DNA of 64,000 bases from the NCBI GenBank assembly GCA_009746045.1, contig RPFO01000024.1:5001-69000 (forward strand), written 5' to 3'. Position numbers and translations under genes: made by a program. Positions 28,808-62,385 of the stretch are shown here, one piece after another (position 1 is the first letter of the stretch; each line of letters opens with the position of its first letter). A model generated the notes under the pieces. The model saw only the letters and a program-made list of their open reading frames with translations. It had not been told where the DNA came from and ran no database searches. Origin of the DNA: Mesostigma viride. Taxonomy: Eukaryota; Streptophyta; Mesostigmatophyceae; Mesostigmatales; Mesostigmataceae.

Positions 28808-28847
28808 CAAATTACAACCAGTCTCAGCGGAACGGCCAGGAGGGTCG

Positions 28848-29830: not shown

Positions 29831-29932
29831 GTGGTAACACTTGGCACTTTCCTTTCTTGTTCAGTAGCTTATATTGCTTTAATTGCTGCTTGGCCACTTG
29901 GCTGGCTGTAGCAGATCTGAACAGAGGCCATC

Positions 29933-33564: not shown

Positions 33565-34138
33565 TGTTACGTCCTGGCTCGACTCTATCCCAAACATCTC
33601 GCCTAACCTTACCTAAACTAGTGATGAGGCACCTACCGAGGAGTGAGGAGCTATATTGGCTATAAGACCTAGGACGCGACGACGCTGCTTCTCAATGCAT
33701 TCCCTTATAATACGCCATATACCGAATAAAACCAGGGTACTACGAAGGAAACAATACTACACTGCCGTGACCCAAGCCTATATGTGTTAATTCATTTAAC
33801 ACACGCCGAGTGCCATTCACGAAGGACAACTGCTGCATAAATGATCGCCGACAGGCGTGTATGCTCGGGCCGACATCGACCCTCGCACACAGGACCAACG
33901 CACGTCCACAAGGTTCACACGCAGGATAAAAGGACCACTACTAAAGTACGCAGCGCGGCGCGACTGCACCGAACCACCATACTGTACAAGTGCCACGTCA
34001 CAAGGCCCGGTACCGACCGGCCAAAAGGTCCTTACTACACGTAAGCCTAGGAAAGTCAGCGAACTGCTCCGGAATGGCTGAGGCAACAAGGGACCTAATT
34101 TACGTCCGTAACAACAACAAAAGTTACGCGACGTAACA
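33565..34138 (-). repeat. Gypsy 3' LTR (element orientation)
   Basis: 574 bp, TG...CA ends, apparently identical to 42191-42764. Small ORFs inside it are present in both LTRs and are not genes. Confidence 0.95.
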
Positions 34139-34156
34139 CCTCCCCCCCCACAAAGG
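34139..34156 (-). promoter_or_regulatory. Gypsy polypurine tract
   Basis: On the minus strand, TTTGTGGGGGGGGAGG lies directly before the 3' LTR. A purine run abutting the LTR primes plus-strand DNA synthesis. Confidence 0.8.
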
Positions 34157-34508
34157 TAGGGAGCCCTCTCCCTACGCACAGGGAGGAAACCAAGGGATAG
34201 GAAACCTAATGCACCCAGCACACACCAACACAATCGGCAGGCCATCCAAGATACAAAGCACCAACGTATTAACTCGGTCTCCACCACCACGCCGGGAGGT
34301 GTAGGGTTAACCAGCACCAAGCCTGGTGGTAGGTTCCCCTAACTGCCTGGAACAGAGTCCTTGCCGGGGGGGACGGCACTGGGCAGGACACACAGAGTAA
34401 ACAAATCAGTACCAAGGACCAAGAACGACCAGTCAACTGGCCAGAACGTGAGGGCGACTCTATATACCGGAGGGACAACACCCTCAGGTCGGGCCTAAGG
34501 CCCTCTAT

Positions 34509-37785: not shown

Positions 37786-37793
37786 AACATGTC

Positions 37794-38138
37794 CTAAAAA
37801 TGGTACACTCCTACCAGAACAACTTTAGCACGGCGAGCCCACAAGGAATTTTCAGCCATTATCTCTAATACTTTCTTTAAAGCACGTAGGTGCGTTTCAA
37901 AATCAGGAGAGTAAATAAGGATATCATCTAAGTAAGCTTGAGCACAAGAACGGTCATGCTCAGATAAAGAAACAGAGGAGAAGGACGGATCCTTTAAATC
38001 AGATGACACTTGAGGAAGGTGAGAATTACCCATAACAGGTCTAAGCACTTCATTCATTAACATTTGAAAAGAGGCAGGAGAGTTACAGAGTCTCATGGCC
38101 GCTACTCTAAACTGATAATGACCAAAAAGGGGTAGCAA
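37794..38138 (-). CDS. pol: Gypsy reverse transcriptase, palm segment
   Basis: Frame carrying FRVAAMRLCNSPASFQMLMN and the catalytic AQAYLDDILIYSPDFETHL (the Y-X-D-D box). It is separated by frameshifts from the neighbouring pol frames at about 38120 and 37790. The sequence between NSPASFQ and YLDD has an insertion rich in Ser (HLPQVSSDLKDPSFSSVSLS) compared with typical Ty3 enzymes. Confidence 0.82.
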   Translation of the reverse strand: MLPLFGHYQFRVAAMRLCNSPASFQMLMNEVLRPVMGNSHLPQVSSDLKDPSFSSVSLSEHDRSCAQAYLDDILIYSPDFETHLRALKKVLEIMAENSLWARRAKVVLVGVYHF

Positions 38139-39375
38139 AGGCGGTTTTATGGCAATCCTCAGGGGCTATACGCAGTTGCCAAAAACCATCCGCACAATCC
38201 AGTACCGTGAAACAAGTGGAACCTTTAACCTTATTAAATATATCATCAATACGAGGTAGAGGGTATTTAGACTTCACAGTAATGTCATTTAACTTCCTAT
38301 AATCAGTAACTAGGCGAAACTTGCCATTTGGCTTAGGAACTAACAGGACACCAGCTGAGTAGGGGGAGTTACTAGGCTCTATCAATCCTGCTTCTAATAG
38401 TGACACTAAAATCTGTTTTAGTTCCTTTAACTCGGTAGGGCCCATTCTATACATCGGAGAGTGCGTAGGAACTGCACCGTCCTTAATAACTACACGGTGT
38501 AAAACAGAACGAGGAGGAGGATAAGAAGGACTCTTTTCTTCAAAAACTTTGGAGGAATCTATCACAGCCATGTATCTTACTATTTCGTTTTCAGTATATC
38601 CCACTCCTATTGTATCCACTGTGTTTACATCTATATCCACACTATTATTAGTGATAGGTATCTCCTGTACTTCTAACTGAAGGAACATACATAATAAATA
38701 TCCATATTCCTTTAATTCAGATCGCAACTCATCATTGGACATTAATACTTCAGGTATAGGTCTTACAGGAGGATCAACAGGTGTAGGAGGAGTAATATCT
38801 ACCAAGGATAAATTTTCTACTTTATAATGACGTTCTGGTACCCAGTAAGAGCTATCTGGAAACCAAATGACCATGGTAACATAATTAATGGTAATCTTAT
38901 TATCCTGGTGCCAATCTAATCCTAGTAATACATCAGCGGTAGTGATAGGGCCTATAGTGGCCGTCAGGTTGACAGTACGTCCTTGTATGACCAGGGGAAG
39001 GGACACCGTACCCGGGGAATGACTGGTGCGACCGTCAGCATAATGAACAGTGACAGGCTTGGTGTGAGGGATAGGGACTAGTTCTAAACGCCTAACTAGG
39101 GCCTCGCTCACAAAGGAGCTAGCCGCACCGCTATCCACTAACACACAGACATTCAAAAGTTCATCAGCATGCAAGAAGGGGTCTACAACAGTGTGGGGAA
39201 CGGTTAAGCCACCATTCCAAAACATAAGAGGACGAACACGTAAGGGTAGGGATGATTCAGCTCCTACAGAAGTTATGAAAACAGGCAGGCAAAAATTATT
39301 ATCTGGGGTACTATCTAAGGACCTGTCCAGGTTACCCCCGGCTGACAGGCCTACTGTTCCCCCTCCCCCCCACAT
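38107..39375 (-). CDS. pol: Gypsy protease and N-terminal reverse transcriptase
   Basis: 422 residues. The protease has the active site LVDSGAASSFVS (about residues 80-91) and the conserved ADVLLGLDW. The reverse transcriptase starts with HRVVIKDGAVPTHSPMYRMG, PYSAGVLLVPKPNGKFRLVT, DYRKLNDITVKSKYPLPRID and FTVLDCADGFWQLRIAPED, holding the first catalytic Asp. Overlaps the gag frame by 44 bp in another frame, as expected for gag-pol frameshifting. Confidence 0.9.
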   Translation of the reverse strand: MWGGGGTVGLSAGGNLDRSLDSTPDNNFCLPVFITSVGAESSLPLRVRPLMFWNGGLTVPHTVVDPFLHADELLNVCVLVDSGAASSFVSEALVRRLELVPIPHTKPVTVHYADGRTSHSPGTVSLPLVIQGRTVNLTATIGPITTADVLLGLDWHQDNKITINYVTMVIWFPDSSYWVPERHYKVENLSLVDITPPTPVDPPVRPIPEVLMSNDELRSELKEYGYLLCMFLQLEVQEIPITNNSVDIDVNTVDTIGVGYTENEIVRYMAVIDSSKVFEEKSPSYPPPRSVLHRVVIKDGAVPTHSPMYRMGPTELKELKQILVSLLEAGLIEPSNSPYSAGVLLVPKPNGKFRLVTDYRKLNDITVKSKYPLPRIDDIFNKVKGSTCFTVLDCADGFWQLRIAPEDCHKTAFATPFWSLSV

Positions 39376-41053
39376 CCATTGGGACTAACCCCGAAGAAGT
39401 CCCTGGCGAAAAAGCCACTGCTGGAGGGTCGCGAGGGAGCGAAGAGGGTGCAGGAGCCTGATTATCATAGGGGAACCCTGAGGGTCCTGTCTGCACAACA
39501 TTCAGCCTACTAGGGGTAGCTGAGGGAATGCGTCCTGGAGTGGGACGAATAGGAGCACGCTGAGGGGTACGAGGAGGGCGAGCATCGGGATGAGGGGGAG
39601 CACCAGAAAGGAACTTGGGGCACTCCGCCTTAAGATGGCCCACCTCATGACAATGATAACACGAGATGTGAGACACATCCAATGCAGATATATCTGTAAC
39701 GCAAATATCGAATTCTTCTACATATGCCTATTCTTCTTCAGGAGTGAGGACAAGGTTATGAACCCTAGTACACAAAGGAGCATGAGCATACATGCAATCA
39801 GCAACACGGAGGAGATGGGTAGGAAGAGGAGTGGTAAAGAAATCTGCTACTCTTTAATAGACGTTGTCGCACATGCTTGAGGGGCAGATCAGTGAAACGG
39901 TAGGCAGAGAACTGGCGTTTTACCTCACGTAATAAGGGTCTACTGAGGCCTTGAAGGAAACGAGCACGTACTTCTGCGCCCGACAAATCCCTAATTCGTA
40001 CCATCTGTGCATCAAGTTCTTTCATATATTCCTTAAACGGTTTAGTACCTTGCTGCAAAGTACCAAAGGCTAATCTATCCTGCCAATCTGCATCAGGAGG
40101 AACTAAATGGCTCTCTAACCGCTAAAACAATCCTGCTACTGAGTTAGGGTAGGCATGAGAGGCCAAGGATTCACACTGGATGAGGTTGGCAAGCTCAGGG
40201 GTAATACAGGTAGTAAGATAGTGAGGGACTAAAACAGCATCAGAGAGACGCCATCTATTATGATTCTGCCACGACTCTGTGTTCTGGGTAAGCAACATAA
40301 TAAAAGTGAAAAACTGTTGAGGGGTAGACTTGACATCCAGCTAATTGGGAAGGTTAGCAAAGAGGGGAAGAGCAGGAGGCTTAGGGGGATTCGAAGAGTC
40401 AGTTTTTCCCATAGGGCCACTATCTTCCACTGCTACATAAGCGGGATAGAAGGAAGGAAGAGGAAAGGTTTTGGGTAGGGGTCGAGAAGGGGCCACCGTT
40501 TCAGACTGGTGCCCATAGGAGAAAGGAACAGTATATTGCTCACGAAGAGAGGAGTAGGCAAAATGATCATAATTTCTATCATCTAGGGGCATGGTGCTGA
40601 AATCACTATTACTTCTAAATCAGCCACACGGGTAGGGACCTGGGCTGCCTCATAGGCCGTCTCAGGGTAGGACCAGGAAGCAGGTGGGTAAAATGGAACT
40701 GCACTAGGGCGCCCAGAGGGGCCGACAGGGGCAGAGGTACGACCCGTGTTAAAAGCAGGCATGGAAGGCACAGAGTGGGAAGGAGGCCTAGAAACATTGT
40801 TAGTTAGTGAGGACCTGCTGGGGGGTTGAGCCAAGGTTGCAAGAGGGGCAGGGGCCTGGTTCAAGGTAAGGGAAGGGTCATCACTAAATCTGACTTGCAT
40901 ACGTTGTTCATAGGTAGGAGGGGTGACAGAGGGACGACGATTGTTATTATTATTATTATTATTATTGTTGTTGGCATTATTAGAATTATTAGTGGTAGGT
41001 ATAGGTGACATCTCTCCACCCACTAGATCCATGTTCAGTTTGAGGAAAAACAA
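39332..41053 (-). pseudogene. gag: Gypsy gag, broken into several frames
   Basis: Minus-strand frames at 41053-40583, 40592-40341, 40058-39798 and 39682-39332. They hold an Asn-repeat N-terminus encoded by an ATT/GTT microsatellite (about 40942-40975), Pro/Ser-rich sequence, a retrotransposon-gag helix region around FKEYMKELDAQMVRIRDLSG and ARFLQGLSRPLLREV, and a zinc knuckle CYHCHEVGHLKAEC. In-frame stops and shifts separate the parts, so no full Gag is made from this copy as read. Confidence 0.75.
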
Positions 41054-42177
41054 TTAAGGTTGCAATAAGGAGGAGGACAACGCCCTAATTTAAAGCAAGG
41101 AAAGCAAAAAGGAAAAACTTTTAATGTCCTAAGAGAGGAAAACAAGTAAAATCAATCCTTTTTAATAACAGTAATGGATAGGGAGCCAAACTCTAAGGTG
41201 AGAGGAGTATCTACACTAGAGGAGGATGACACCGTAGGACGAGGGGGAGATGGAGGTAGTGAAACCAAAACAAGGCTATCTACCGAAGGGCGAGCAAGAG
41301 GAGCAGGAAAAGAACGTCTTGGGGGTACAGCACCAGAGGTAGGGGCTGCAGGAAGGGTAGAAGTATAGTGACAGGGGGAGGACGTATTGGCTCACTGGCC
41401 CGTTGCTGGGCAGCCCTAACCTTAGGGGTATCAGTAGGGTTACCTTGTACCTTGAAGGCAGGGGTAGGGGAAGACCGATCAGGTTTCATAGGCAATAGTA
41501 GACACTGATATGGGAGTCGTTGAAAGATGGCGCCCAAATGGTCGTCGATGACCAACGCCGTAGCCGAGGAACTCCTGCTGTGGGGTACAACACCAACCAC
41601 AAGGGTCTAAACATAGGCATATACATCCAAGCGTAAAAGAGAGTGGAAGGCGATGAACAACGTTCTAGCATCGGCGACTAGCCGAATCTATTCCTAGGCA
41701 CTTTCCTATTCTAGCCGATTCCTAATGAACGGATAGGAGGCACTTGAGGTGGAGGAGGTCCTACCTCTCCTCCCCCCCCACAAAGCATCTATGATGCTCG
41801 CCTAGAGCTAACGAGCATATAAGAAAACGCAGCAGCGTGCACGGAAAAGAGGTGTAGTCTAAAGGGACGCTAATCGTCCCACTATCCATCACTATTGAAC
41901 CGTCAAACCCACTAGCTAACGTCAAACAGCACCCAGCAAGGAAATGCACACACAGATGGAAAAGGAAAAGGAAAAGGAACTAGCTACGTGAGGAGTTCAT
42001 CCGCTTTGAGCAGGTCTAACTTCTAGGCAGGGCGTGTCCCGAATCGGGCAGCACTACCCCCCTAGCTTGACGGCGACCCGCCCATTACCTGTCAAGAGGT
42101 TGTCTTCTTCTGTGCCCTGGCCGCGGAAGGCCTCTGGCGTATAGGGTTGCAAGGGAACTTCGTCGCGTCTACCTAAA
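41054..42177 (-). other. Gypsy untranslated leader
   Basis: About 1.1 kb between the primer-binding site and gag on the minus strand. No convincing ORF. It contains a second stretch (41770-41786) resembling the polypurine tract and its neighbourhood. Confidence 0.5.
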
Positions 42178-42189
42178 CCTCCGCTACCA
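42178..42189 (-). promoter_or_regulatory. Gypsy primer-binding site
   Basis: On the minus strand TGGTAGCGGAGG starts two bases inside the 5' LTR end (42191). TGGTA followed by a GGAGG-like stretch complements the 3' end (CCTCCGCTACCA) of an initiator-methionine-type tRNA, differing at one base from the vertebrate initiator tRNA end. Confidence 0.7.
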
Positions 42190-42190
42190 T

Positions 42191-42764
42191 TGTTACGTCC
42201 TGGCTCGACTCTATCCCAAACATCTCGCCTAACCTTACCTAAACTAGTGATGAGGCACCTACCGAGGAGTGAGGAGCTATATTGGCTATAAGACCTAGGA
42301 CGCGACGACGCTGCTTCTCAATGCATTCCCTTATAATACGCCATATACCGAATAAAACCAGGGTACTACGAAGGAAACAATACTACACTGCCGTGACCCA
42401 AGCCTATATGTGTTAATTCATTTAACACACGCCGAGTGCCATTCACGAAGGACAACTGCTGCATAAATGATCGCCGACAGGCGTGTATGCTCGGGCCGAC
42501 ATCGACCCTCGCACACAGGACCAACGCACGTCCACAAGGTTCACACGCAGGATAAAAGGACCACTACTAAAGTACGCAGCGCGGCGCGACTGCACCGAAC
42601 CACCATACTGTACAAGTGCCACGTCACAAGGCCCGGTACCGACCGGCCAAAAGGTCCTTACTACACGTAAGCCTAGGAAAGTCAGCGAACTGCTCCGGAA
42701 TGGCTGAGGCAACAAGGGACCTAATTTACGTCCGTAACAACAACAAAAGTTACGCGACGTAACA
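42191..42764 (-). repeat. Gypsy 5' LTR (element orientation)
   Basis: 574 bp, paired with 33565-34138. It ends GACGTAACA on the + strand, directly followed by the ggagg duplication. Confidence 0.95.
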
Positions 42765-43921
42765 GGAGGGTGTGGAAGCAGGATGAGCCTTACTGTGTTG
42801 AGGTGCCTGCCATCTGGAAGCTGGAGCTGCATCAACAATTCCTGGTTATTCTGAAGGGCCTGGAAGGACTCAGGTCGAGCCCAATCATCTGGAGGCTCAC
42901 GCTGCAGGAAGCTCTGATCAGTGAGTGTGGCTTGAGAGTGTCTTCAGTTGATCCCTGTTTGCTGCTGGCCCAATGGGAGGGTCTGCCAGTGTATGCTAGT
43001 TTGCATGGAGATGATCTGCATTTGCTAGCCCCCACGACCTGGCTGAAGAAGTTTATTCCTGTCATCAGTGGCAAGTTTTCACTGGGCAAGGAGCTGTGGC
43101 AGGAGCCCAACAAGCCTGTAGTGTTCTGTGGAATGCAGGCTACCCTGTTCAGGAGGGACGGGGAGTGGAGTATCAGGCTTCAGGCTGGAGGAGATTATAA
43201 ACAGACCATTGTGAAGGCCTTGCCAGAGAAGATCACCCAGGCTGCAGGACCTGAGTTGAGAGGCATGTGGGCCTGGTTTGCCAGCATCTGTGGTCCGTCT
43301 TTGATGGTCCATAGCAGAATGCCTGATGAGGTGCTTGAGGATGAGAAGCCTCGAGTCATAGCCCGGTTGGTGGAGAGTACCCCTGATCTGATTTTGTCTG
43401 GGATTGACTTTGCCCAGCCTATCACCTTGGAGATCTTTGTTGACAGTTCCATGGATGCTCGCCAGGTTACCAAGGTCAGGGGGAGATCTGCTGCTCTGTT
43501 TGCTTTTTATCAGAGCAGGGCAAGTTTGTTCAGCTGGTACAGCAGACTGCAGAAGAGGGTCTGTATCAGTTCAGATGTGGCAGAATGCAGGGCCATATGC
43601 GAGGGGATCCAGTCCAGCTTGTACATAAAGGAGTTAATGCTGGAGCTGGCTTCAGTTACCCCTTGGACCTTGCAGATGGAGACGTTGTTGCTAACAGACA
43701 GCATGGGTATGGTCCAGTTTGTTCACAAGCAGCTGGCCAGAAGCCGCGACCTGGATTATTTGTTGCTGAAGGAGTTGGCCAGTCTGGTTGACTTGAAGCA
43801 TATCCCTGGCGAGGAGAACCCTGCTGATGCATTGACAAAGCTGCCACACAAGGCCCCAGCCCAGTACAATGTACTGAGGAAGCTCATGAATGCTGACTGT
43901 CAAGTCGGTCTATCTGTCTAA
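42765..43921 (+). CDS. pol: Copia reverse transcriptase (C-terminal part) and RNase H
   Basis: Resumes the frame broken at 33564. It contains VWKQDEPYCVEVPAIWKLEL, LEGLRSSPIIWRLTLQEAL, the second catalytic motif as VYASLHGDDLHLLAP (GDD rather than the usual YVDD), then RNase H with IFVDSSMDARQVTKVRGRSA, the SSDVAECRAICEG Glu, LLTDSMGMVQFVHKQL and HIPGEENPADALTK. The stop is at 43919-43921. The Copia class assignment rests on this RNase H ending and on integrase lying before RT. Confidence 0.9.
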
Positions 43922-44728
43922 AAGCTGAGAGCTGGGTGCTTAAGTCTCTGGATATCAGGCTGGGAGCTTGATTGTACATAATCCTGAGCACACCTTGAGG
44001 GGTGAGACATGTCTCTGGTGTGGGAATGTCTGACATTGTCTCTGATGGAGAGATGTCTATCTGGGGTTTTCATCTCAGTCTGAGGTTTCCCCAGATCTGT
44101 GGTTTGTGGGCGGGGTTCGATTCCCTGGTGCCGTCTTAAGGCGGAGTTTCACGGACTGGCTGACCCATCCACCATGCTGGTGAGGTGGCGACAGGTCCCC
44201 TGATTTTCCACGGTTGGAACGAGTATAGGAGCTTGTGTTTTGCATGTGCTTTGCGTAGATGTTGTGTCTGGTTCGATAAGGGGCAGCAGACCGGCGCCGA
44301 CTCCCGTCTGGGGGTCAGCAATGTTTTCTGATGAGCTGTTGTGGGTGATCTGTGGGGTTTCGCCTAAGGTCCTGAAGGTTGTACATACTTCTCAAGTTCT
44401 TAGCTGAACACCTATGGGCTGCCACAGTTGGCCAACCTCTTGTACATGGGTAACACAACGAGCCTCCCGTGAAGGGATAGGGACTCATTGTAATTTGTTT
44501 GTGCTCCTGAACCAGTATGGGTGCTATGTACATATAATAAGGAATCCAAGCTGACTGTCATGCCCAGTGGGTTGTGACTTGTAGTCGGGGAGGATGTCCA
44601 GGAATCCAAGCTGGCTGTCATGCCCAGTGGGTTGTGACTTGTAGTCGGGGAGGATGTCCAGTACCCATTGTGTGTGTTTGTATGTAGACTTGTGTGAGCT
44701 GCTACAGCTCAAGAAAAGAAAGGATTGG
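43922..44728 (+). other. Copia 3' untranslated region with 60-bp tandem duplication and polypurine tract
   Basis: No gene. A 60-bp unit starting ggaatccaagctg is present twice in tandem (44541-44600, 44601-44660) with one difference. A purine-rich stretch aagaaaagaaaggattgg (44711-44728) touches the 3' LTR and is the likely polypurine tract. Confidence 0.75.
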
Positions 44729-45428
44729 AGTTAACGCCAAGCGCATTGGCGTGATCCTGATTCGGCATTTCTCTGCGATTCCAGCGGCACCGGAACGAGT
44801 TCATTCCGACAAGTATCAAGAAAGTTATGGCGTTCCGACTTCCCGGTCGCGCGCGAGCGCGAGCCGGCTGTTCTTCTAAGTCGGACGTGAATATTTGCCG
44901 ACGACATATGGGGTCGACAGTAATTCCTGGGCTGACAGGAATTAGGTGCTGTACCTACGACGGTATTGGATTAATACGTCGTACGCAGGAAATAGGAACC
45001 TTAAACTGTGGTCTGTTGGTACCGCAGGCCTAGTCCTGGACTTCTAGGTGCAGATGCAATAATCACTGTGGTGACTGTACTCTGTGGTCACTGTGCCTGT
45101 ATGGAAGACCTACTGTATAGGAACTGGGCGCTGTACAGGTAGTGAATACTGTACCGGGAGTGTTATTACTGAGCATACCTCTTAGGTTGCTCAGGACTAG
45201 CAAGCACAGTGCACAAGTATATAAAGAATAGGCCAGTGCCATTTGGGCAGATCTCTTGCGAGCCCGCCTCACGTGTTGTGCCTTGACTTGGCAAGCGCGT
45301 GTACAAGCCTCAAGTGTGTGAGCGCTGTAACATTATCCAATTTTAACAAAGCTCCGTTTCCAACCATATTCACACATTGCTGCATTGCAACCATATCCTT
45401 CACATTGCGTTTGCTAGGAACGTTAACT
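44729..45428 (+). repeat. Copia 3' LTR
   Basis: 700 bp, matching 28112-28807 apart from a few substitutions and 1-2 bp insertions. It is followed by the atagc target duplication. Confidence 0.95.
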
Positions 45429-48254: not shown

Positions 48255-50540
48255 TTAAGGGGAGGGGACATGCCTAAAGGGCACTTTTCTGGAAACCATA
48301 CCTATGCATGTGCAAAAAATCCAATGATGATTGGGGACCATAAATATGATTAAAAAAAAATTTTCCAGCCACTTGGGGGGGGTACTAGCCCCCACCATAC
48401 ACCGGTAACGCGCTAAAAATAGAAAAAGACGCTATTTTAGTCACATTTTCCCTAGGACAATGGGCAAACATATTGGGACCAAATCATATATTCCCGCATA
48501 GTTCCCCCACTTTTGAGAAATTCTACCTAATTGGGACCAAGAAATAAGAATGTTTACTCACGTTGATGGATTTCCCGCAAAACAGGTACTTTTTTAATCC
48601 AAAAAAAAAAAATCAAATCATAAACACATCATATCGTGCTCCACCATATATTCCCAAATATTACAGGTGGGGGGACATGCAGCCCCAAATTTTCAGGTCA
48701 TTCTGACGAGCGCAGCTCTAGTTGATGGATTTCCTAGGTAGCCACCTGTGACGAAGCTAAGGGAGGTTTCTTAGTGTATCTTACACCATAAACACCCCTT
48801 TATCCATCCAAACCATGCAAAAACTGGCCAAACCACATGCTGCCAACCTCTGCACATACGGTACCTCCTATGTTCAAGGTTTGACGCCATTCTGACAAGA
48901 ACTGCCCAAGTTACAACCATTCCAAGACGGCCACCCATGTGGACTCTACAAGGAAATTAGAGTAACCATTCAGCCACACTAGCACCTCCTTCTTCATCAA
49001 GGACATCTGCAAACTGACCAAAGCACACATAATTAACTCTTGCACGCTGACGGCAACGCATGCTCAACGTGGGGGGTCATTGTGACAAGAACTACTCAAG
49101 TTGATGGGTTTCCTATATGACCACCTGACAAGGCGCTAAGGACCACTCAGTAAGTTAGTAACCCCACAGTGCCACTTCGTATGCCATCCAACATGCACCA
49201 AAACCATGCTGAGTATGTTTACAATGTACGAAGGGGTGGCCACGCTCCTCATATGTCTTCATCATCCCTCCAGCATGGCCAGCCTTGTAAATATGTTCAT
49301 AGCCTTGACGATGGTAGCCCTAATATGCCTAAGCAGCATTTCCTATGTTTCTCCTAGGTTAGAGTGTAAGGTTGATGAAAACCAAGCTAATCAACTCAAC
49401 AACACCTCCTAAACTGTCCTCCCCGGCATGGATGACAAACTGGGACTATGGAGGGCAAGGAACCAAGTAGGAACATGGTATATATAGCTTGCATGCAGTC
49501 ATGCATGTCAACCATGGTTGGCTCAGCACATTGTAGTCTTGTCACATCATCATAACAAAGGAAAGCTCAAACAACCATTGGTGACAGCTATCTACATGCA
49601 GTCACACATATGCAATATCTCCAACATCATCATCACTAAAACACTTCCATCCCTGCACGATAAAATTCAAAGAAACCATTGGCGGCCCTTCAGCGCATGA
49701 GCGCTGTGATGCCGCTGAGAAGAGAGGGTGCGTCACTCTCACACAACAAGAAGCGTCCATACGCACAACATCCTTGCCGGAACACGTTTTATGAAATGCC
49801 TTATACCTTCCCGAAGAGCTATAGGCTGCGACTGAAGCGGCCCTGATCACGACATCAACGAAAACAATCTAAAGCTGCCAGGTATTCGACAACACAACGG
49901 CAAGCGACGGCGAGATAGCTGGCGGAAACGGCCCAAAAAGAACGCAAAAAACCTCGAACGATGAGCTCATAGAAGAAAGCACTGATAGCAGATAACATTC
50001 GCGACAAACCTGTACCTCGCTCTCGTAAATCCCTCGCCCAGGCGCGCAACAACCGCCGTTCTTCCATGGACAGGTCAGACACGCACTGCGCAGGTCTGAA
50101 CAATTACTTACCGATTATGGCCGAAAATCTGGCAAAAAGCACCAGCTCGGTTTAGAATTCGATGCAAAGGGTATTAACGCCTGCTTCACGGTCAAAACAA
50201 CCCTAAAAACCGCGATTTTACTGCCGCTATCATGAATTCTATTTTATTCCGCGCGACCAAAAAATTCAGATTACCCCCCATGCCGATGGCATTAAAAAAC
50301 AACAGCGATATTGTAAACCAGCTGATTTCCGCCACAAACTAACATCATAAACTCATCGTCTTTTAGATTCGAGTAAAATTTTTGCATTTCGCCTGCCCTA
50401 GTGTGGTAGTTTCGCCTGAACGCAGTCGCCATGGCCACTTCTGCAATGGGTGCGCGCACCGTGCACGTGAAATTTATGACCTTCGGTACCGGCGCGAATT
50501 TTTTGGCGCCAAAAAATTCGGGCATGTCCCGTCCCCTTAA
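48255..50540 (+). mobile_element. 2278-bp TTAA-flanked DNA transposon, copy E1
   Basis: TTAA at 48255-48258 and 50537-50540. Ends GGGGAgGGGACATGCC and, inverted, GGGGAcGGGACATGCC. The interior has no ORF above 83 residues, so it is non-autonomous. TTAA duplication with GG ends is compatible with Kolobok-like elements and less so with piggyBac (CCC ends). A copy of exactly the same length lies inverted at 54336-56613. Confidence 0.85.
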
Positions 50541-50752
50541 GGGGAGGGAATATGCCTAAAGAGCACTTTTCTGGAAAACCATACCTATGCATGTGCTTAA
50601 AATCCAATTATGATTGGGAACCATAAATATGATTTTTTAAAAAAATTCCAACCACCTGGGGGGGGTACTAGCCCCCACCAGATGCCGGTTACGCGCTAAA
50701 AATAGAAAAAGACGCTACTTTTGGCATATTTTCCCTAGGACAATGGGCAAAC

Positions 50753-50950
50753 CCTGTGGGCAAGCCACCTCCCCCCAAGAGGAGGAGGCGTTTTGATGAG
50801 TAGGGTAGTTCGGATTTTTCTAGACTAGCTAGATTAGCGTTAGGTTAGTTCGATTACTACGCGGCTCTCCCCACTCCACCACCCATCAAGGAATATGTGC
50901 TACATGATCTCCCAACGGAGGCATGTTCTAATTTAATTTAATTTAATTTT
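50753..50950 (+). mobile_element. LINE 3' end inserted in E2
   Basis: 198 bp: a peptide end VGKPPPPKRRRRFDE, stop, UTR with ctacatgatctcccaacgga and a (TTTAA)n tail. Flanked by the duplication aatgggcaaac (50742-50752 and 50951-50961). Confidence 0.85.
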
Positions 50951-51055
50951 AATGGGCAAACATATTTGGACCAAATCATATATTTCCATATAGTTCCCCC
51001 ACTTTTGAGAAAGTCTGCCTAATTTTGAGCACAAAATAATTATGTTTAGACACAT

Positions 51056-52898
51056 TCGGGGTTCTTTGAACGGAGTTTCTTCTATACGTGAATGCGGGAA
51101 CAAGAGGCCGCTGGATGAGCGGCTTATAGGTCGTAGTGTCTTCTCGTAGCTGTTTGGCTAGAGCTTTTGTGATTAGTAGATGCAGTATAGTGCATGGTTG
51201 AAAAATGAATTAAATAAATGTGCGTTCCGCGCTTGGGTTGATTATACCCGGGCGGAACGGGGCGTGAGGTGCAGTGCCCCTGAAAAGAACAACCTACGCA
51301 TTATTTAATACTAGCCGTGCAGATTCGGGATATTCTACCCCCGGTCTGTACGGTTAGCGTCTTACTAGCATCACTGAACATAAGGGTTTAATGACGTCAG
51401 TTAGCTAGGGATAAGGGAGGTTTTGCGACTAAAAGCCGCTCTGGCTGGTTTTGTCGGCCTCTTTCTTTGCTCGTTGTCGTTGCGGCGGCAGCCGCAGCTA
51501 TGGGTGCTGCGGAGCAAAATCCCAAAAGCACTGGTTGCACCGGCCACTTGGCCAGTGGTGAGACTTCCAGTTGTTAACCGGCCAGGCGTAGTTCCTCGGC
51601 CGGTTAACTAAAAGAAAAGAAAATGATTACCTCCGGTCCGCACCTTTTCCCCAGCTTGGGGTCTTTGGTGGGCCGGGTGCCGTGACAGGTGCTCAACTGT
51701 CGCTTGGTCGGCCCAGTGCGCGAGCTGGTGCTCCGTACCTGGGGATGCTTGCACCCCGGGTTGGAGCCGGATGGCTGGCACTGGCGACCCGTGTCTCGGT
51801 CCGCGGCCTGCGGCTTTTTCTTCGGAAATTGCTGCTGGCCAGCAAACTTTGCAATTGCCTTCCGCCGAGGGGGGGGGGTTGGGGCTGGGGACGGCGATGG
51901 GAAAAGCGCCTAAGCTAGAAATTTTTTCCCCACGCATAGAAACCTCGGGGGGGAATGCGGTCTTGGCTGAACGGACTCTCGTTCAGCCAGGTGCCTGGGG
52001 CTGTGGCCTCGGGCATCCGGGCTGGCGGGGTCTGGGCTAGGTCCACGTTTTTTCTCGAAGCACCCCGGGTCTATGGGGAGACGGCCATAGCGGTACCGAC
52101 TCGGGGCCCCGAGAGGGGTCATGATAGGCTGGCCGTGCGCAATCGCAGTGCAAATGCGCTGGGCCTTTTTGGGCCTGGCCATGCATCCACAGCCGCCGGG
52201 CACACGCCTCCCGATGTGGGGGGGCTCCCGTTTTGCGGCAGGGCGGTCACTTCTGACAACGAGCAAGGTGGAGTGCGGCTTCAAGGGAAAGCCAGGGCGG
52301 GGGTGATTGGGCAACGTACTTCATGAAGGGCCTTGAACGGCGTGCCTCCGGGCATGTCAATAGTGTCACATGTATGCTTCCACTTATTGTTTTAATGAAG
52401 ATGCTGGTTTTTGTGGGAGCTACGTGGGACATGAATCGGGGTTCTTTGAACGGAGTTTCTTCTATACGTGAATGCGGGAACAAGAGGCCGCTGGATGAGC
52501 GGCTTATAGGTCGTAGTGTTTTCTCGTAGCTGTTTGGCTAGAGCTTTTGTGATTAGTAGATGCAGTATAGTGCATGGTTGAAAAATGAATTAAATAAATG
52601 TGCGTTCCGCGCTTGGGTTGATTATACCCGGGCGGAACGGGGCGTGAGGTGCAGTGCCCCTGAAAAGAACAACCTACGCATTATTTAATACTAGCCGTGC
52701 AGATTCGGGATATTCTACCCCCGGTCGGTACGGTTAGCGTCTTACTAGCATCACTGAACATAAGGGTTTAATGACGTCAGTTAGCTAGGGATAAGGGAGG
52801 TTTTGCGACTAAAAGCCGCTCTGGCTGGTTTTGTCGGCCTCTTTCTTTGCTCCCCACCCACCCACCCTTGTCTTGGTTGCCTCTAGGGCAACGTACTT
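51056..52898 (+). mobile_element. Non-autonomous DIRS/PAT-like element G (split direct repeats)
   Basis: A 417-bp repeat A occurs at 51056-51472 and 52436-52852 with two differences. The 127 bp before the second A (B1, 52309-52435) has its first 13 bp repeated (52886-52898) after a ccca-repeat linker. The A1-internal-B1-A2-B2 order matches the split direct repeats of PAT-type DIRS elements, with B2 truncated here. The 0.84-kb interior has no reverse transcriptase or tyrosine recombinase. It shares short interior motifs (gtacctggggatgcttgc) with element F. Confidence 0.65.
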
Positions 52899-53141
52899 AT
52901 TACATTGATGGATTTTCTCGCAAAAAGGGTACTTTTTTTCACCAAAAAATATAAAACAAATCATAAACACATGGAATCATGCCATATCTTATATTTTCAA
53001 ATACTGCAGAGGGGGGGACATGCAGCCCCAAATTTTCAGGTCATTCTGACAAGCGCAGCCCTATTTGATGGATATTCCTAGATTGCCACCTGTGATGACG
53101 CTGACGGAGGTTTTAGATTAGCTAGTATTTAACCACACTAA

Positions 53142-56100
53142 TCGGATTTCTTTGAAAAGAGTTTCTCGAAGTGAGGCGGGGAATAAGGCCGCTCACGGGA
53201 GCCGCCTGGATGGTCGGCTGAACCGGGCGGGTTTGGCAGATGTAACCGGATTTGGCTAATGGCTGGCGACCTGGAATTGTTAGTAGGGGCAGTGGCCCTA
53301 TTGTGCTACAATCTCGAAACAATCTTATGCTTAAAGTTTGACAGGGCCGGGTTTGTTGAACCGGTTTGTTGAATGATAATTAGAACCTTTCGGAAAGGGT
53401 ATTTGATTGGTTGTTGTTTTTGTGGTACGGTAGTAGGTGTCGCTACATTCTCAGGTTGGCGTGTTAAGTTAAGCTCGGTTGCTGATGTCAGCCCCGTGCT
53501 AGGGCAGTTTGACTACTTTGGCGGCGTAGTGACATTGTTGTGGTCTTTTTTCTTGTAAACGTTGGCTGAGCGCCGACGGCTGAGGCTATGGCGGTACAAG
53601 AAGTGCCTCACCAGCCTTGCGCTCAGCATGGGTGCGGGGCTAAAATTTGTTAACCAAATTTCCGGCATCCATGATCCCTGGCTGCTTAAGGCGGTTGGGA
53701 TTCATGGCTGCCACTGGCCCGGAATTAATGTCCGGGTGATCGGGGTTTAAATGCGAAGCGGGGGCTGATGCATTATTTAATGGCTGGTTTGTTTGAAAGA
53801 AACGGCCAGCTGGCCGGGTTGGGCAAGGGCTAGCTTGCTTGATGGTTCCGTACCTGGGGATGCTTGCGCCTCGGGTTGGGCTGTCGGCAGGCTGGCCTGC
53901 CTTTGAGTTGTCTCGTACCTGGAAATGCTTGCATTCCGGGTTGGGCTTGGCTTGAGGGCCGCCGCGGCTCGGGGGGGTAAAAAATTTAAGTCACCGTTGT
54001 GGGACACGGAGCCTCGGCGCAGGAGGCAAGGGCTGAAAACCAACTTGATTTCGTAATCAGTGGTATTTCCACTTTTTTGTACGGAAGGAGTGTTTATGTG
54101 CTCGGCACTAGGTTGGTTGCTCTTCAAAAAAGTTGTAAACTGGGCGTCGGCTGGAATCAGCGGCGCCAGTCAGCAGCTTTTGCTTTGACTTTGTGTTCCG
54201 CGACAGCACCCCTTAGCGGACCAGAGAAGAGGTCGGCAACGAGGTCAGCGGGGGCCCCCGAGTGGGGTCAAAAATGCGAGCTGTGTCGATTGACAGTGCA
54301 TGAATTTTTGTGCATTCACAGTCGCTGGGAATTAAGGGGACGGGACATGCCCGAATTTTTTGGCGCCAAAAAATTCGCGCCGGTACCGAAGGTCATAAAT
54401 TTCACGTGCACGGTGCGCGCACCCATTGCAGAAGTGGCCATGGCGACTGCGTTCAGGCGAAACTACCACACTAGGGCAGGCGAAATGCAAAAATTTTACT
54501 CGAATCTAAAAGACGATGAGTTTATGATGTTAGTTTGTGGCGGAAATCAGCTGGTTTACAATATCGCTGTTGTTTTTTAATGCCATCGGCATGGGGGGTA
54601 ATCTGAATTTTTTGGTCGCGCGGAATAAAATAGAATTCATGATAGCGGCAGTAAAATCGCGGTTTTTAGGGTTGTTTTGACCGTGAAGCAGGCGTTAATA
54701 CCCTTTGCATCGAATTCTAAACCGAGCTGGTGCTTTTTGCCAGATTTTCGGCCATAATCGGTAAGTAATTGTTCAGACCTGCGCAGTGCGTGTCTGACCT
54801 GTCCATGGAAGAACGGCGGTTGTTGCGCGCCTGGGCGAGGGATTTACGAGAGCGAGGTACAGGTTTGTCGCGAATGTTATCTGCTATCAGTGCTTTCTTC
54901 TATGAGCTCATCGTTCGAGGTTTTTTGCGTTCTTTTTGGGCCGTTTCCGCCAGCTATCTCGCCGTCGCTTGCCGTTGTGTTGTCGAATACCTGGCAGCTT
55001 TAGATTGTTTTCGTTGATGTCGTGATCAGGGCCGCTTCAGTCGCAGCCTATAGCTCTTCGGGAAGGTATAAGGCATTTCATAAAACGTGTTCCGGCAAGG
55101 ATGTTGTGCGTATGGACGCTTCTTGTTGTGTGAGAGTGACGCACCCTCTCTTCTCAGCGGCATCACAGCGCTCATGCGCTGAAGGGCCGCCAATGGTTTC
55201 TTTGAATTTTATCGTGCAGGGATGGAAGTGTTTTAGTGATGATGATGTTGGAGATATTGCATATGTGTGACTGCATGTAGATAGCTGTCACCAATGGTTG
55301 TTTGAGCTTTCCTTTGTTATGATGATGTGACAAGACTACAATGTGCTGAGCCAACCATGGTTGACATGCATGACTGCATGCAAGCTATATATACCATGTT
55401 CCTACTTGGTTCCTTGCCCTCCATAGTCCCAGTTTGTCATCCATGCCGGGGAGGACAGTTTAGGAGGTGTTGTTGAGTTGATTAGCTTGGTTTTCATCAA
55501 CCTTACACTCTAACCTAGGAGAAACATAGGAAATGCTGCTTAGGCATATTAGGGCTACCATCGTCAAGGCTATGAACATATTTACAAGGCTGGCCATGCT
55601 GGAGGGATGATGAAGACATATGAGGAGCGTGGCCACCCCTTCGTACATTGTAAACATACTCAGCATGGTTTTGGTGCATGTTGGATGGCATACGAAGTGG
55701 CACTGTGGGGTTACTAACTTACTGAGTGGTCCTTAGCGCCTTGTCAGGTGGTCATATAGGAAACCCATCAACTTGAGTAGTTCTTGTCACAATGACCCCC
55801 CACGTTGAGCATGCGTTGCCGTCAGCGTGCAAGAGTTAATTATGTGTGCTTTGGTCAGTTTGCAGATGTCCTTGATGAAGAAGGAGGTGCTAGTGTGGCT
55901 GAATGGTTACTCTAATTTCCTTGTAGAGTCCACATGGGTGGCCGTCTTGGAATGGTTGTAACTTGGGCAGTTCTTGTCAGAATGGCGTCAAACCTTGAAC
56001 ATAGGAGGTACCGTATGTGCAGAGGTTGGCAGCATGTGGTTTGGCCAGTTTTTGCATGGTTTGGATGGATAAAGGGGTGTTTATGGTGTAAGATACACTA

Positions 56101-57425
56101 AGAAACCTCCCTTAGCTTCGTCACAGGTGGCTACCTAGGAAATCCATCAACTAGAGCTGCGCTCGTCAGAATGACCTGAAAATTTGGGGCTGCATGTCCC
56201 CCCACCTGTAATATTTGGGAATATATGGTGGAGCACGATATGATGTGTTTATGATTTGATTTTTTTTTTTTGGATTAAAAAAGTACCTGTTTTGCGGGAA
56301 ATCCATCAACGTGAGTAAACATTCTTATTTCTTGGTCCCAATTAGGTAGAATTTCTCAAAAGTGGGGGAACTATGCGGGAATATATGATTTGGTCCAAAT
56401 ATGTTTGCCCATTGTCCTAGGGAAAATGTGACTAAAATAGCGTCTTTTTCTATTTTTAGCGCGTTACCGGTGTATGGTGGGGGCTAGTACCCCCCCCAAG
56501 TGGCTGGAAAATTTTTTTTTAATCATATTTATGGTCCCCAATCATCATTGGATTTTTTGCACATGCATAGGTATGGTTTCCAGAAAAGTGCCCTTTAGGC
56601 ATGTCCCCTCCCCTTAAATCTGTTTTCTGGCAACGGAGAGCGCCCATCGCGACAGGACAGCTTTTGACGGGAAAGGAAATGGTGCTTCTTTAGCGGACCG
56701 GAGGGCCAGGAAGGGGAGGTTGGGTAATCGCGAGCCATGCCTAAGGAGTTCTTAATAGCGGTTCTGTAACCGCTACCTGTCTGTATGCATCTACTTATTG
56801 TTTTAACAAAGATGCTGGTGACTATGGTGAGCAAACGGGTGTATGAATCGGATTTCTTTGAAAAGAGTTTCTCGAAGTGAGGCGGGGAATAAGGCCGCTC
56901 ACGGGAGCCGCCTGGATGGTCGGCTGAACCGGGCGGGTTTGGCAGATGTAACCGGATTTGGCTAATGGCTGGCGACCTGGAATTGTTAGTAGGGGCAGTG
57001 GCCCTATTGTGCTACAATCTCGAAACAATCTTATGCTTAAAGTTTGACAGGGCCGGGTTTGTTGAACCGGTTTGTTGAATGATAATTAGAACCTTTCGGA
57101 AAGGGTATTTGATTGGTTGTTGTTTTTGTGGTACGGTAGTAGGTGTCGCTACATTCTCAGGTTGGCGTGTTAAGTTAAGCTCGGTTGCTGATGTCAGCCC
57201 CGTGCTAGGGCAGTTTGACTACTTTGGCGGCGTAGTGACATTGTTGTGGTCTTTTTTCTTGTCCCACCCACCCACCCTCTTTGGTGGCCTGGTCTGCGCG
57301 GGTAATCGCGAGCCATGCCTAAGGAGTTCTTAATAGCGGTTCTGTAACCGCTACCTGTCTGTATGCATCTACTTATTGTTTTAACAAAGATGCTGGTGAC
57401 TATGGTGAGCAAACGGGTGTATGAA
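53142..57425 (+). mobile_element. Non-autonomous DIRS/PAT-like element F with complete split direct repeats
   Basis: A1 53142-53556 and A2 56848-57262 (415 bp each). B1 56722-56847 and B2 57300-57425 (126 bp each, apparently identical). B1 directly abuts A2, and a 37-bp (ccca)-containing linker separates A2 from B2. This is the A1 ... B1-A2-B2 design of PAT/Kangaroo-like tyrosine-recombinase retrotransposons. The interior (about 0.9 kb without the nested E1 copy) has no RT, RNase H or recombinase, so it depends on a partner. Confidence 0.72.
54332..56617 (-). mobile_element. 2278-bp TTAA-flanked DNA transposon, inverted copy inside F
   Basis: TTAA at 54332-54335 and 56614-56617. Same length as E1 (2278 bp) and almost identical in reverse orientation; one difference seen is attggg versus atttgg. 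It sits inside the interior of element F. The small ORFs are mirror copies of those in E1 and are not genes. Confidence 0.88.
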
Positions 57426-57937
57426 CACCCCTTTATACATCTAAGCCACGTGAAAACTGGCCAAACCACACACTACCATCCTCTGCACATATGGTACCTC
57501 CTATGTTCCAGGTTTGACGACGTTCCGACAAGAACTGCCCAAGTTACAACCATGCCAAGACGGCCACCCATGTAGACACTACAAGGAAATTATAGTAACC
57601 ATTCAGCCACACTAGCACCTCCTTCTTCATCAAAGACATCTGCAAACTGACCAAAGCACACATAATTAACTCTTGCACGCTGACGGCAACGCATGCTCAA
57701 CGTGGGGGTCATTGTGACAAGAGCTACTCAAGTTGATGGGTTTCCTATATCAAGGAGACCAGCGCAGGCCAGAAATCGGGAGAATCCGGACCATGGTAAC
57801 TCGAGCCTGCCGTTATCTTGTCCGCGTGTTAGAGTCGTTCAGGATGATGAAGATGAATGGTGATGGAAATGTGTATCCGTGTGCATTGAAATTATGGCTG
57901 GCTTACGTGTAGAGCGACTAGATGACCTAGACGGTGG

Positions 57938-59261
57938 GGCCGGAACAGTGAACAGCCATACGGCGTATAATACGCCGTATGGCGCGTATTATACGCCATA
58001 CGCAAGATTTCCGTATGAAAATGGGAAAAAAAATACGCACTGCGTATTTTTTGCGTATTTTTTGCGTATTGCGTATTTTTTGCGTATTTTTTGCGTATGA
58101 ACCGCGTTCGAAGTAGCTTCTGGCATCATTTTGGACGGCACGTGGAGCCGGAACTAGACTGTATCTAGGCGACCTGGAACTCCGCGACAAATAAACGACA
58201 TGCAGGTGCCAAGCTGGCCGTGCATGTACGACTGTACGTGCATTGCTGCAGATTGCTGCGTGTCGGACTAGGGTCTAGGAGACGAAGGACGAGGAAATTA
58301 GGTGACGAAGTTATGTTGTCTGCCAACAAGGGCGCGCATCTGGCACCTAACATTTAATCGTAGCACAATTGACATCCAGGCACCATGGCTAGCGACGGTG
58401 ATGGTGTGGGTCTATGGAACACGATGATGACTGGGCCGACGAGATGCAGGCCGTATTCGAGACTGTCTGGACACACATCGTGAAAGAACAGACTCTCAAC
58501 AAGAAAGGGCAGCCGACAGGTAACTACAAGCTAAGTGACGTGCACACTTTTGGATGCAAAATTCTCGGGTTCTACCACCCGAGCAAGGCTAGCACCCGCC
58601 ATATCATGGGCGCTACGTACGCGAAGGAGGCAAGAGTGAGCGAGTGCAAGAGGCCGCCGGAGGCATTACGTCGCAGGCTGCGGGGTATTTGGTGTGACTC
58701 GCGATGCACATAAATGCCTTATTTAGCCATGCAGGCTGCTGCTAGCCAGCCACCGTACCATATGTGTTAATGGTTTAGGGAAGCTGGGTCGGGTTGCTGG
58801 CATGCATAGTATCCTGCACGCTAGCCACATTGTTGGCAGCCCGTATGGATTCTTGCTTCATGTAGATCAATATTGCATGGTGGCCTACCACGAGTAGGCA
58901 AGATGTCTGCTTCTGGCACAATGTCTTATTACTTTTGGCAAGTTGGCCGACTGACCGTGTGCTATTTACAGACATTATTAATAACAACAGATGTACAATG
59001 CTTGTATTTGTAGGCATGCAGCGACGGCAACGGCAATATTATGTGATGATGTGTTAAATAAAGGCAAGTGGTATTGCAAGAACACACAAAAAAAATGCCT
59101 GATTGGTCAGAATGTTGAAGAACCCCCTGAACCATGCAAAAAACAGCATTTTCAAGAGTCCCCGTATGATTTGCGTATTATACCCCGTATGGCGTATTAT
59201 ACACCATACCCATGGGCCCCGTATGATTGCGTATTGCGTATGGCTGTACACTGGGCCGGAA
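57938..59261 (+). mobile_element. hAT-type DNA transposon, 1308 bp, non-autonomous
   Basis: The 8-bp duplication ggccggaa occurs at 57938-57945 and 59254-59261. The element begins CAGTGAACAGCCATACG and ends in the inverted form of CAGTGTACAGCCATACG. CAGTG/CACTG ends plus 8-bp duplications define the hAT superfamily. Both subterminal regions are packed with GCGTAT motifs in both orientations, probable transposase-binding sites. No transposase domain is recognisable. Confidence 0.92.
58414..58713 (+). CDS. Small ORF inside the hAT element, function unknown
   Basis: 99 residues from an ATG: acidic start EHDDDWADEMQAVFE, then VWTHIVKEQTLNKKGQPTGN and a basic end. Its composition looks protein-like and no family is recognised. 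It could be a remnant of transposase or a captured exon (there is a possible GT donor at 58519). Confidence 0.35.
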   Translation: MEHDDDWADEMQAVFETVWTHIVKEQTLNKKGQPTGNYKLSDVHTFGCKILGFYHPSKASTRHIMGATYAKEARVSECKRPPEALRRRLRGIWCDSRCT

Positions 59262-60034
59262 ACAGCATGCTTGATCAGGGCGTGTGTTTCGAGCCTAACT
59301 GGCCGGGACTCGGGAGCTAGTGTCTAGTGGTGAGCACCATTGCTGCGATCGCTCTCCCACCATTTACGAGGAAATACCCGCAAATGGAAAACCACTGAAA
59401 AGGTCTAGCTACTAGTCAGTCATCACGTTAGCCATGCCATGATTCCAAACGCCCAAGAACTGCACACCGCCAGCACACGGTGCAAAGGCAAAAAGCCGGA
59501 CGACAGCACTTTCAAATGTGCGGCGGGAACCAAAAGCCCGCGTATGCCAGGGTCTCCTATATTCTGATTTCCTATATGATCACCTGACAAGGCGCTAAGG
59601 ACCACTCAGTAAGTTAGTAACCCCACAGTGCCACTTCTTATGCCATCCAACATGCACCAAAACCATGCTGAGTATGTTTACAATGTACAAAGGGGTGGCC
59701 ACGCACCTCATATGTCTTCATCATCCCTCCAGCATGGCCAGCCTTGTAAATATGTTCATAGCCTTGACGATGGTAGCCCTAATACGCCTAAGCAGCATTT
59801 CCTATGTTTCTCCCAGGTTAGAGTGTAAGGTTGATGCCAACCAAGCTAATCAACTCAACAACACCTCCTAAACTGTCCTCCCCGGCATGGATGACAAACT
59901 GGGACTATGGAGGGCGAGGAACCAAGCAGGAACATGGTATATGATAGCTTGCATGCAGTCACGCATGTCAACCATGGTTGGCTCAGCACATTGTAGTCTT
60001 GTCACATCATCATAACAAAGGAAAGCTCAAACAA

Positions 60035-61466
60035 CCATTGGTGGAGGGACTGCAACGCCTTCAGCCTGGTGAGTCCCCTTTGCACCTTGTGCTGGTGGAC
60101 TTCATCAAAGCCTTCGATTCGGTTTTCTGGCCTGCGCTTTGGGACATCCTCGAGTTGTTCCGGATCCCCCGCCCCCTGATTGCGGTCATCCGCAACCTGT
60201 ATGAAGGGTCCACCACTTCGGTGCGCACTTCTTACGGGACCACGCCCCCATGCCCTTTACAGAAGGGTGTGTGGCAGGGCTGCGTGCTGTCGCCCTACCT
60301 GTTCATTATTGTTGTCGAATACGTAATGATTCAGGCGCGCAAGCGATTTGCCCGCATCGTGGGCAGGGAACCAGGAGTGCAGGTTGCTAACAAATTCTGG
60401 CATGGCGGTGCGGACACGGAGATTCGGCTGGCAGACATCATCTACGCAGACGACACCACCCTCTTCGAGGACACTGAGCACGTGCAGACATGGCTTGACT
60501 GCCTGGCTCTCGAGGCCCGTGCAGTGGGGCTGGAGGTCAGCAAGAAGACAGAGGCCCTGGCGGTTGGGCTCACCAACTCACCGCCGCCCCTCTATCTCCT
60601 AGACGGCTCTCGAGTCCTGTATCGGGACCGCGTTAATTAAGCCGCTGGGCAGCCTGCTCCCCAGCTGCGAGGTTGATGTGGACCATCGCATCTCCCTCGC
60701 CTGGCACGCTTTACGCCAGTACCGGGCCCTGTGGCGCAAGCCCCTGGGCAAGATCGAGAAACAGGACCTGTTCAAGGTCCTCGTGCTTCCTGTTCTCACG
60801 TATGGAGCCGAGACGTGGACCCTCACCGCCGACCTGGCCCGCAAGCTGGACGGCGCGGTCACCAGCATGCTGCGTTCCATTTTCAGAGTAGGATATGCTG
60901 CTCATGTCCGCAATGAGGACCTGTACCAGGGCATGCCCTATATCACCAGCACCATTAAGCAACGACGCCTGCAGCTAGTAGGGCACCTAGCTCGCACCAA
61001 CCAGGTAGACACCTCACGTGGCCCCCCCGCAGGACTGCGACCAGCCCAGCCTGGCCGGCACCTCCTGACGTGGGCTGGGCCCAGTGATGTTAGACGCCGC
61101 AAGGCCCGCACCTTCAAAGAACAGCTAGTAGAGGACATGGGGGGCCTAGGCCTCTCCGTGATTTGGAAGAAGATGATGGACAAGGCCAAGTGGGCCCAGG
61201 TCATAGAGGACAACGAGCCCCCCCCAGTGGGGAAGCGCCCGCGTGTGCAATCCCGTGGGAGGCACGCCAGATAGCTCCCCTAGGGCAGCGTGCGGCTGCC
61301 TAGATAGATGTTGTAGTCAGAATGCTGTTAGATAGATGTAGTGTGTAGCCAACGTAGATAGATTAGACCGGTAGGACTGTTTGCACCTATCCATCCATCC
61401 ATCGGGGTTAATGCTCCGTGACTCCCCAACGGGAGCACGAGTCTAATTAATTAATTAACCATTGGT
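60035..61466 (+). mobile_element. 5'-truncated LINE with reverse transcriptase
   Basis: Insert 60044-61457 flanked by ccattggtg (60035-60043 and 61458-61466). It carries the C-terminal half of ORF2 and ends with a tgactccccaacgggagca hairpin and (TTAA)n tail (61429-61457). It interrupts the diverged E2 copy. Confidence 0.9.
60044..61274 (+). pseudogene. LINE ORF2 reverse transcriptase, C-terminal half
   Basis: The first frame (to 60640) encodes VLVDFIKAFDSVFWPALWDI (first catalytic Asp), PLQKGVWQGCVLSPYLFIIV and IRLADIIYADDTTLFED (YADD box). A frameshift near 60620-60640 leads into the second frame (to 61274) with VLVLPVLTYGAETWTLTADL and KQRRLQLVGHLAR, the usual thumb and C-terminal region of non-LTR reverse transcriptases. 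The 5' part (endonuclease, ORF1) is absent because of truncation, so this copy is dead. Confidence 0.88.
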
Positions 61467-62024
61467 GCCAGCTATCTACATGCAGTCACACAAATGCAAT
61501 ATCTCCAACATCATCATCACTAACACACTTCCATCCCTGCACGATAAAATGCAAAGAAACCACTGGCGGCCCTTCAGCGCATGAGCGCTGTGATGCCGCT
61601 GTGGCCTGCGAAGAGAGGGTGCGTCACTCGCAAACAACAAGAAGCGTCCATACGCACAACATCCTTGCCGGAACGCGTTTTATGAAATGCCGGCTTATAC
61701 CTTCCCAAAGAGCTATAGGCTGCGACTGAAGCGGCCCTGATCACGGCATCAACGAAAACAATCTAAAGCTGCCAGGTATTCGACAACACAACGGCAAGCG
61801 ACGGCGAGCTAGCTGGCGGAAACTGCCCAAAAAGAACGCAAAAAACCTCGAACGATGAGCTCATAGAAGTAAGCACTGATAGCAGATAACATTCGCGACA
61901 AATCTGTACCTCGCCCTCGTAAATCCCTCACCCAGGCGCGCAACAACAGCCGTTCTTCCATGGACAGGTCAGACACGCACTGCGCAGGTCTGAACAATTA
62001 CTTACCGATAATGGCCAAATCATG

Positions 62025-62084
62025 GAATATGTGCTACATGACCTCCCCACGGCGGCATGTTATAATTTAATTTAATTTTTTTTA
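62025..62084 (+). mobile_element. LINE 3' end inserted in E2 (second)
   Basis: A 60-bp insert with atggaatatgtgctacatga, a cctccccacggcgg hairpin and a (TTTAA)n tail. Flanks ggccaaatc and ggccgaaaatc are an imperfect duplication. Same family as 3042-3103. Confidence 0.75.
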
Positions 62085-62385
62085 ACGGCCGAAAATCTGG
62101 CAAAAAGCACCAGATCGGTTTAGAATTCGATGCAACCGATATTAACGCCTGCTTCACGGTCAGAACAACCCCCAAAACCGCGATTTTACAGCCGCGATCA
62201 TGAACTCTATTTCATTCCGCGCGACCGAAAAATTCAGATTACCCCCCATGCCGATGGCATTAAAAAACAACAGCGATATTGTAAACCAGCTGATTTCCGC
62301 CACAAACCAACATCATAAACGCATCGTCTTTTAGATTCGAGTAAAAATTTTGCATTTCGCCTGCCCTGGTGTGGTAGTTTCGCCT

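Follow-up and report, generated by a model that had tools for sequence, protein, structure and literature searches.

Two gene-less elements with split direct repeats inside one old transposon copy, very probably non-autonomous tyrosine-recombinase retrotransposons

Split direct repeats have been described in tyrosine-recombinase retrotransposons as A1-B1-A2-B2 (PMC4157794), and the commonest form is given as 'A1-internal-B1-A2-B2', with target site duplications lacking (PMC8969392). According to the replication model described for these elements, the copies of each repeat are near-identical at insertion (PMC6681497), and the model against which we read the present locus is the one set out across four accounts (PMC4157794, PMC3266345, PMC6681497, PMC8969392). 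PAT, Ngaro and VIPER have one layout in common (PMC4157794, PMC6681497), and PAT-like elements are reported from Chlamydomonas, Volvox and relatives (PMC3266345, PMC8226300).

Element E spans positions 53142-57425 of the window (the whole 64-kb stretch of DNA that was analysed) and amounts to 2002 bp once a later transposon, T, and one TTAA are removed, or 1998 bp with both TTAA removed. It is built from two pairs of direct repeats, identical at 415 of 415 and 126 of 126 positions, respectively, which follow each other as A1, interior, B1 directly against A2, a 37-nt linker and B2. The sequence-only reading had proposed both repeat pairs, their arrangement and the later opening of the element by a transposon, and all of these were confirmed, the last by the TTAA on both sides of T and by a near-identical second T copy. 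The parts of E are as follows.

53142-53556, plus strand: A1, left terminal repeat of E, identical to A2
53557-54335, plus strand: left part of the E interior, up to and including the TTAA target of T
53850-53879, plus strand: hairpin motif copy 1
53915-53944, plus strand: hairpin motif copy 2, with changes on both stem sides
54336-56613, unstranded: later TTAA-flanked terminal-inverted-repeat transposon T, present in a second copy and outside E proper
56618-56721, plus strand: right part of the E interior
56722-56847, plus strand: B1, against A2, identical to B2; proposed copy of the circle junction
56848-57262, plus strand: A2, identical to A1
57263-57299, plus strand: linker joining A2 to B2; its 16 initial nt recur in the second element (E')
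57300-57425, plus strand: B2, right end of E, identical to B1

E begins where A begins, with AATCGG, and stops where B stops, with GTATGAA, and the linker begins CCCACCCACCCACCC. The dinucleotide AA precedes A1 (53140-53141), closes B2 (57424-57425) and also stands where B1 meets A2 (56846-56847), and the identity between A1 and A2 extends to 417 nt when the preceding AA (from 53140 and 56846) is counted. The junction expected of a circle, in which the end of B is joined to the start of A, is present inside E, where B1 gives way to A2 at 56847/56848 with a single AA. As a control for chance repeats, 20 first-order Markov simulations of 64 kb each were run, and the longest exact repeat was 14-18 nt in all 20 runs, which excludes a chance origin of the A and B repeats.

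The body of T, 2.28 kb long, splits the interior of E and has TTAA at 54332-54335 and 56614-56617, with inverted ends reading GGGGA(C/G)GGGACATGCC. A second young copy lies at 48255-50540 in the other orientation and is 99.956% identical over 2286 nt, with one mismatch. An old T copy survives in pieces along 50541-62385, all in a single orientation and 83-97% identical to the young copies, and E lies inside this one old copy together with a second element, E'; the sequence-only reading had missed both E' and the old copy. E' runs from 51056 to about 52901 and follows the same plan, although it is diverged from E. Its parts, and those of the old T copy around both elements, are listed below.

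50541-51056, plus strand: old T, left part up to E', interrupted at 50752-50951; 85.8-88.9% identical to young T
51056-51472, plus strand: A1' of E', 99.52% identical to A2' over 417 nt
51735-51764, plus strand: hairpin motif in E'
52309-52435, plus strand: B1' of E', directly against A2' by alignment; its last 65 nt match B at 75.8%
52436-52852, plus strand: A2' of E'
52853-52885, plus strand: linker of E', 33 nt, with the same first 16 nt as the linker of E
52886-52898, plus strand: B2' of E', reduced to the first 13 nt of B'
52902-53139, plus strand: old T between E' and E, the left flank of E; 83.0% identical over 212 nt
57426-57750, plus strand: old T, right flank of E; 93.3% identical over 326 columns

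The sizes of the parts in E and E' are nearly equal (A, 415 and 417; B, 126 and 127; linker, 37 and 33), and the order A1-interior-B1-A2-B2 is complete in E, whereas E' keeps only the 13 nt of B2'. The two elements resemble each other in sequence at four places only: about 57 columns where A starts, the final 66 columns of B, the first part of the linker and a single stretch of the interior. When this local similarity was judged against 300 dinucleotide shuffles, the observed score was reached by 0/300 for the start of A, the end of B and the interior each, and by 1/300 for the linker. In A and in B alike, the conserved portion is the one next to the B-A junction. In both elements the linker after A2 is a C3A repeat, the other strand of which is a G-quadruplex-type GGGT repeat.

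The old T copy is interrupted by at least six foreign stretches, namely 50752-50951, E', E, 57747-59567, 60044-61456 and 62019-62087, and its right end was not found. A further repeat family shows at both ends of the insertion 57747-59567, which match pieces at 4275-4640 and 21009-21349 (83.5-95%), and frames of a non-LTR-type reverse transcriptase (RVT_1) are present at 59948-61274, also inside the old T.

With E and E' inserted in an old T copy, intact T provides paralogous empty sites, and at both sites the joined flanks align with intact T. The flanks of E, left ...CACACT and right CACCCC..., share only AA, show no 4-6 bp duplication and offer at best an imperfect CACT/CACC, with 3 of 4 positions matching; the empty-site join reads ...CACACT-AA-CACCCC.... 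Against intact T, the join scores 263 with one AA, 262 with both and 260 with none, and joins that assume a duplication score 257 and 253 for 4 bp, 254 for 5 bp and 252 for 6 bp. The best joins, at 268, lie a few bases away, and a join that loses four left bases with AA kept also scores 263. The empty site of E can thus be placed no more closely than to a few bases, and therefore the argument rests mainly on the flanks of E themselves. E' is flanked by the 5-bp ACATT at 51052-51056 and 52902-52906, where intact T reads ACGTT, and B1' ends in ACATGAA, which resembles this target. Judged from these bases, ACATT could have arisen if E' inserted abnormally and duplicated 5 bp, or if B2' lost an internal part and kept last bases that resemble the target; neither the 5-bp repeat nor the 13-nt B2' is predicted by the recombinase model. 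The sequence-only reading had proposed to examine empty sites for lack of a target duplication; at E, with the site placed to a few bases, the flanks share AA alone, and at E' ACATT stands on both sides.

Two LTR elements in the window served as positive controls. A gypsy-like element has identical 574-bp LTRs (33565-34138 and 42191-42764), TG...CA ends and GGAGG on both sides, and a second element, with LTRs at 28112-28807 and 44729-45428, has ATAGC on both sides. These perfect 5-bp duplications indicate that such repeats are visible in the window when present. The second element (28112-45428), with 696- and 700-nt LTRs and an ORF with a CCHC zinc knuckle, encloses the gypsy-like element (33565-42764).

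Outside T, open frames between stop codons do not exceed 132 aa in E, where the next longest has 130 aa, or 137 aa in E', and no Pfam family scored above its curated cut-off in ten frames of the two elements, the sole match being DUF7315 (E-value 0.076, 13.9 bits against a cut-off of 27). These frames leave no room for a reverse transcriptase or recombinase gene, in agreement with the earlier view that neither is encoded, and together with the lack of a recognised Pfam domain in them they support the small, non-autonomous character proposed for E. The window gave no Rfam match at gathering scores and no tRNA with ARAGORN, and the polyadenylation motifs taken from one published account (PMC1868727) gave no help in placing the RNA ends.

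Two copies of a motif, GTACCTGG..ATGCTTGC....CGGGTTGG, lie 65 nt from each other in E and a third lies in E', and the copies fold as a hairpin with energies of -15.4, -14.1 and -25.8 kcal/mol. Across the three copies all 39 of 39 cells pair, and changes on both sides are seen in 3 of the 13 pairs; when the partners are slid, pairing drops to 26-59%, and 29 of 500 shuffles equal the real pattern. The search pattern was derived from the same three copies. With so few copies, 29/500 shuffles as good and a pattern taken from the copies themselves, a conserved hairpin in E and E' is suggestive only.

In light of these data, we consider that E and E', two elements in one 64-kb window, are very probably non-autonomous tyrosine-recombinase retrotransposons with split direct repeats. 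The ends of different sequence, the internal B1-A2, the near-identical repeat pairs and the absence of a 4-6 bp duplication at E all fit the published split-repeat model. We propose that reverse transcriptase and recombinase would be supplied by an autonomous relative and that the RNA of E would be copied, with the internal B1-A2 serving as the template or bridge that restores the incomplete ends and closes the circle. The closed circle would then carry one B-AA-A junction, which the recombinase would exchange with AA in the target, with no staggered cut giving a 4-6 bp duplication. The target of E was an older T transposon, and a younger T landed in E afterwards.

E is a clean further example of a known element type, with nothing new in principle. 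For the circle model, which has been little tested, split-repeat elements without genes offer a natural minimal system, and the nested old transposon provides rare ready-made empty sites. The features common to E and E' must be what the reverse transcriptase and recombinase need in cis. As a speculation, possible but doubtful, the two may be satellites of one tyrosine-recombinase retrotransposon, in which case the shared pieces would be a minimal recognition map and the 5-bp repeat at E' would come from an occasional other integrase. The signals kept by both diverged families, in a green alga outside the Chlorophyceae, would be the sequence on either side of the B-A junction, the C3A-repeat linker after A2 and the internal hairpin with its two-sided stem changes, a proposal as doubtful as the satellite relationship to which it is tied.

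Could the layout have arisen from an ordinary LTR retrotransposon with a DDE integrase? The real LTR would be A-linker-B (56848-57425), and indeed A2, linker and B2 form a contiguous block of 578 nt, the left copy and the extra B being the outcome of truncation or tandem rearrangement; the ACATT around E' also has the length of the duplications at the two LTR elements of the window. However, E carries A at its left end and B at its right end, has no TG...CA ends and no 5-bp duplication, and the same rearranged layout would have been needed independently in the diverged E', so that we find this origin improbable. Taken as a candidate in its own right, an LTR retrotransposon was rejected for E: the same repeat at both ends, TG...CA and a 4-6 bp duplication, all seen in the control elements, are absent, and E' has the 5-bp repeat but different ends. 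It is scarcely credible that chance or recombinational duplications within the old T and its insertions mimic a mobile element. One T copy holds several insertions and the region has undergone heavy rearrangement, but E and E' each break into T cleanly, at separate sites, and have in common a layout and partial sequence that T does not share, and local duplication was rejected on these grounds.

Within the split-repeat elements, the sequence-only reading had taken the layout as diagnostic of the PAT-like group, which is not the case, since Ngaro and VIPER have it too (PMC4157794, PMC6681497); membership of E in PAT is for that reason unproved. E resembles the PAT-like DIRS elements PAT, TOC3 and Kangaroo in its split repeats, A1 ... 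B1-A2 ... B2, with no 4-6 bp duplication at E, but E and E' are about 2 kb in size, encode nothing recognised, being without reverse transcriptase, methyltransferase-like domain and recombinase, and have an A2-B2 gap of only 33-37 nt. TOC1 of Chlamydomonas, as generally described, has split ends like E, is taken as non-autonomous and contains an internal array of short repeats, with which the two hairpin-motif copies of E, 65 nt apart, may be compared; TOC1 is longer than E. The layout of Ngaro is given as A1-[ORFs]-B1A2B2, like that of E, but Ngaro is described as autonomous and about 6 kb long, whereas E is without genes and has a linker between A2 and B2 (PMC8547959). SIRE, the short form of VIPER in trypanosomes, is a gene-less split-repeat derivative like E, but is described as the A2-B2 region alone, whereas E retains A1, its own interior, B1, A2 and B2 (PMC6681497). 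A partner of the Ngaro or VIPER type in place of a PAT-like one is rather unlikely. It would suit the layout, which is the same in these groups (PMC4157794, PMC8547959, PMC6681497), and the host is probably not a volvocine alga; the green-algal reports that we met concern PAT-like elements (PMC4157794, PMC3266345, PMC8226300), and in those accounts we met none for Ngaro or VIPER. That E is PAT-like is plausible, and the assignment to PAT-like or to Ngaro/VIPER-like is decided by the autonomous partner.

In our literature search we met no description of this element, which is no proof that none exists. Exact-pattern scans gave no matches for a B-derived 38-mer and the hairpin in viral contigs or for the start of A2 in a second contig collection, blanks that say little because the collections hold viral and prokaryotic contigs.

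The host was approached through a PRP5-like helicase, which the window encodes on its minus strand and which belongs with proteins of the Viridiplantae. A tree was built from the window protein and 11 proteins chosen from the 120 matches listed, with no Volvox or Chlamydomonas sequence among them; Sanguina, Monoraphidium, Scenedesmus and one further protein form a clade (support 99) that excludes the helicase, which stands next to Chlorokybus with weak support (55). We take Sanguina, Monoraphidium and Scenedesmus to be the sampled Chlorophyceae. The Volvox and Chlamydomonas frame of the sequence-only reading is therefore not borne out by this one host gene, and the comparison with those algae is one of layout only. 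With the low-complexity N-terminus of the helicase as query, no protein was matched. A retroelement protein of the window has an exact match, and among its named relatives the best, at 48%, comes from Mesostigma (label Mesvir1). From these comparisons the host is green and probably not a volvocine alga. Between exons of the helicase gene lies a minisatellite (11804-19851) with a 29-bp unit in about 271 copies, and further arrays of 18-49 bp units are found near it.
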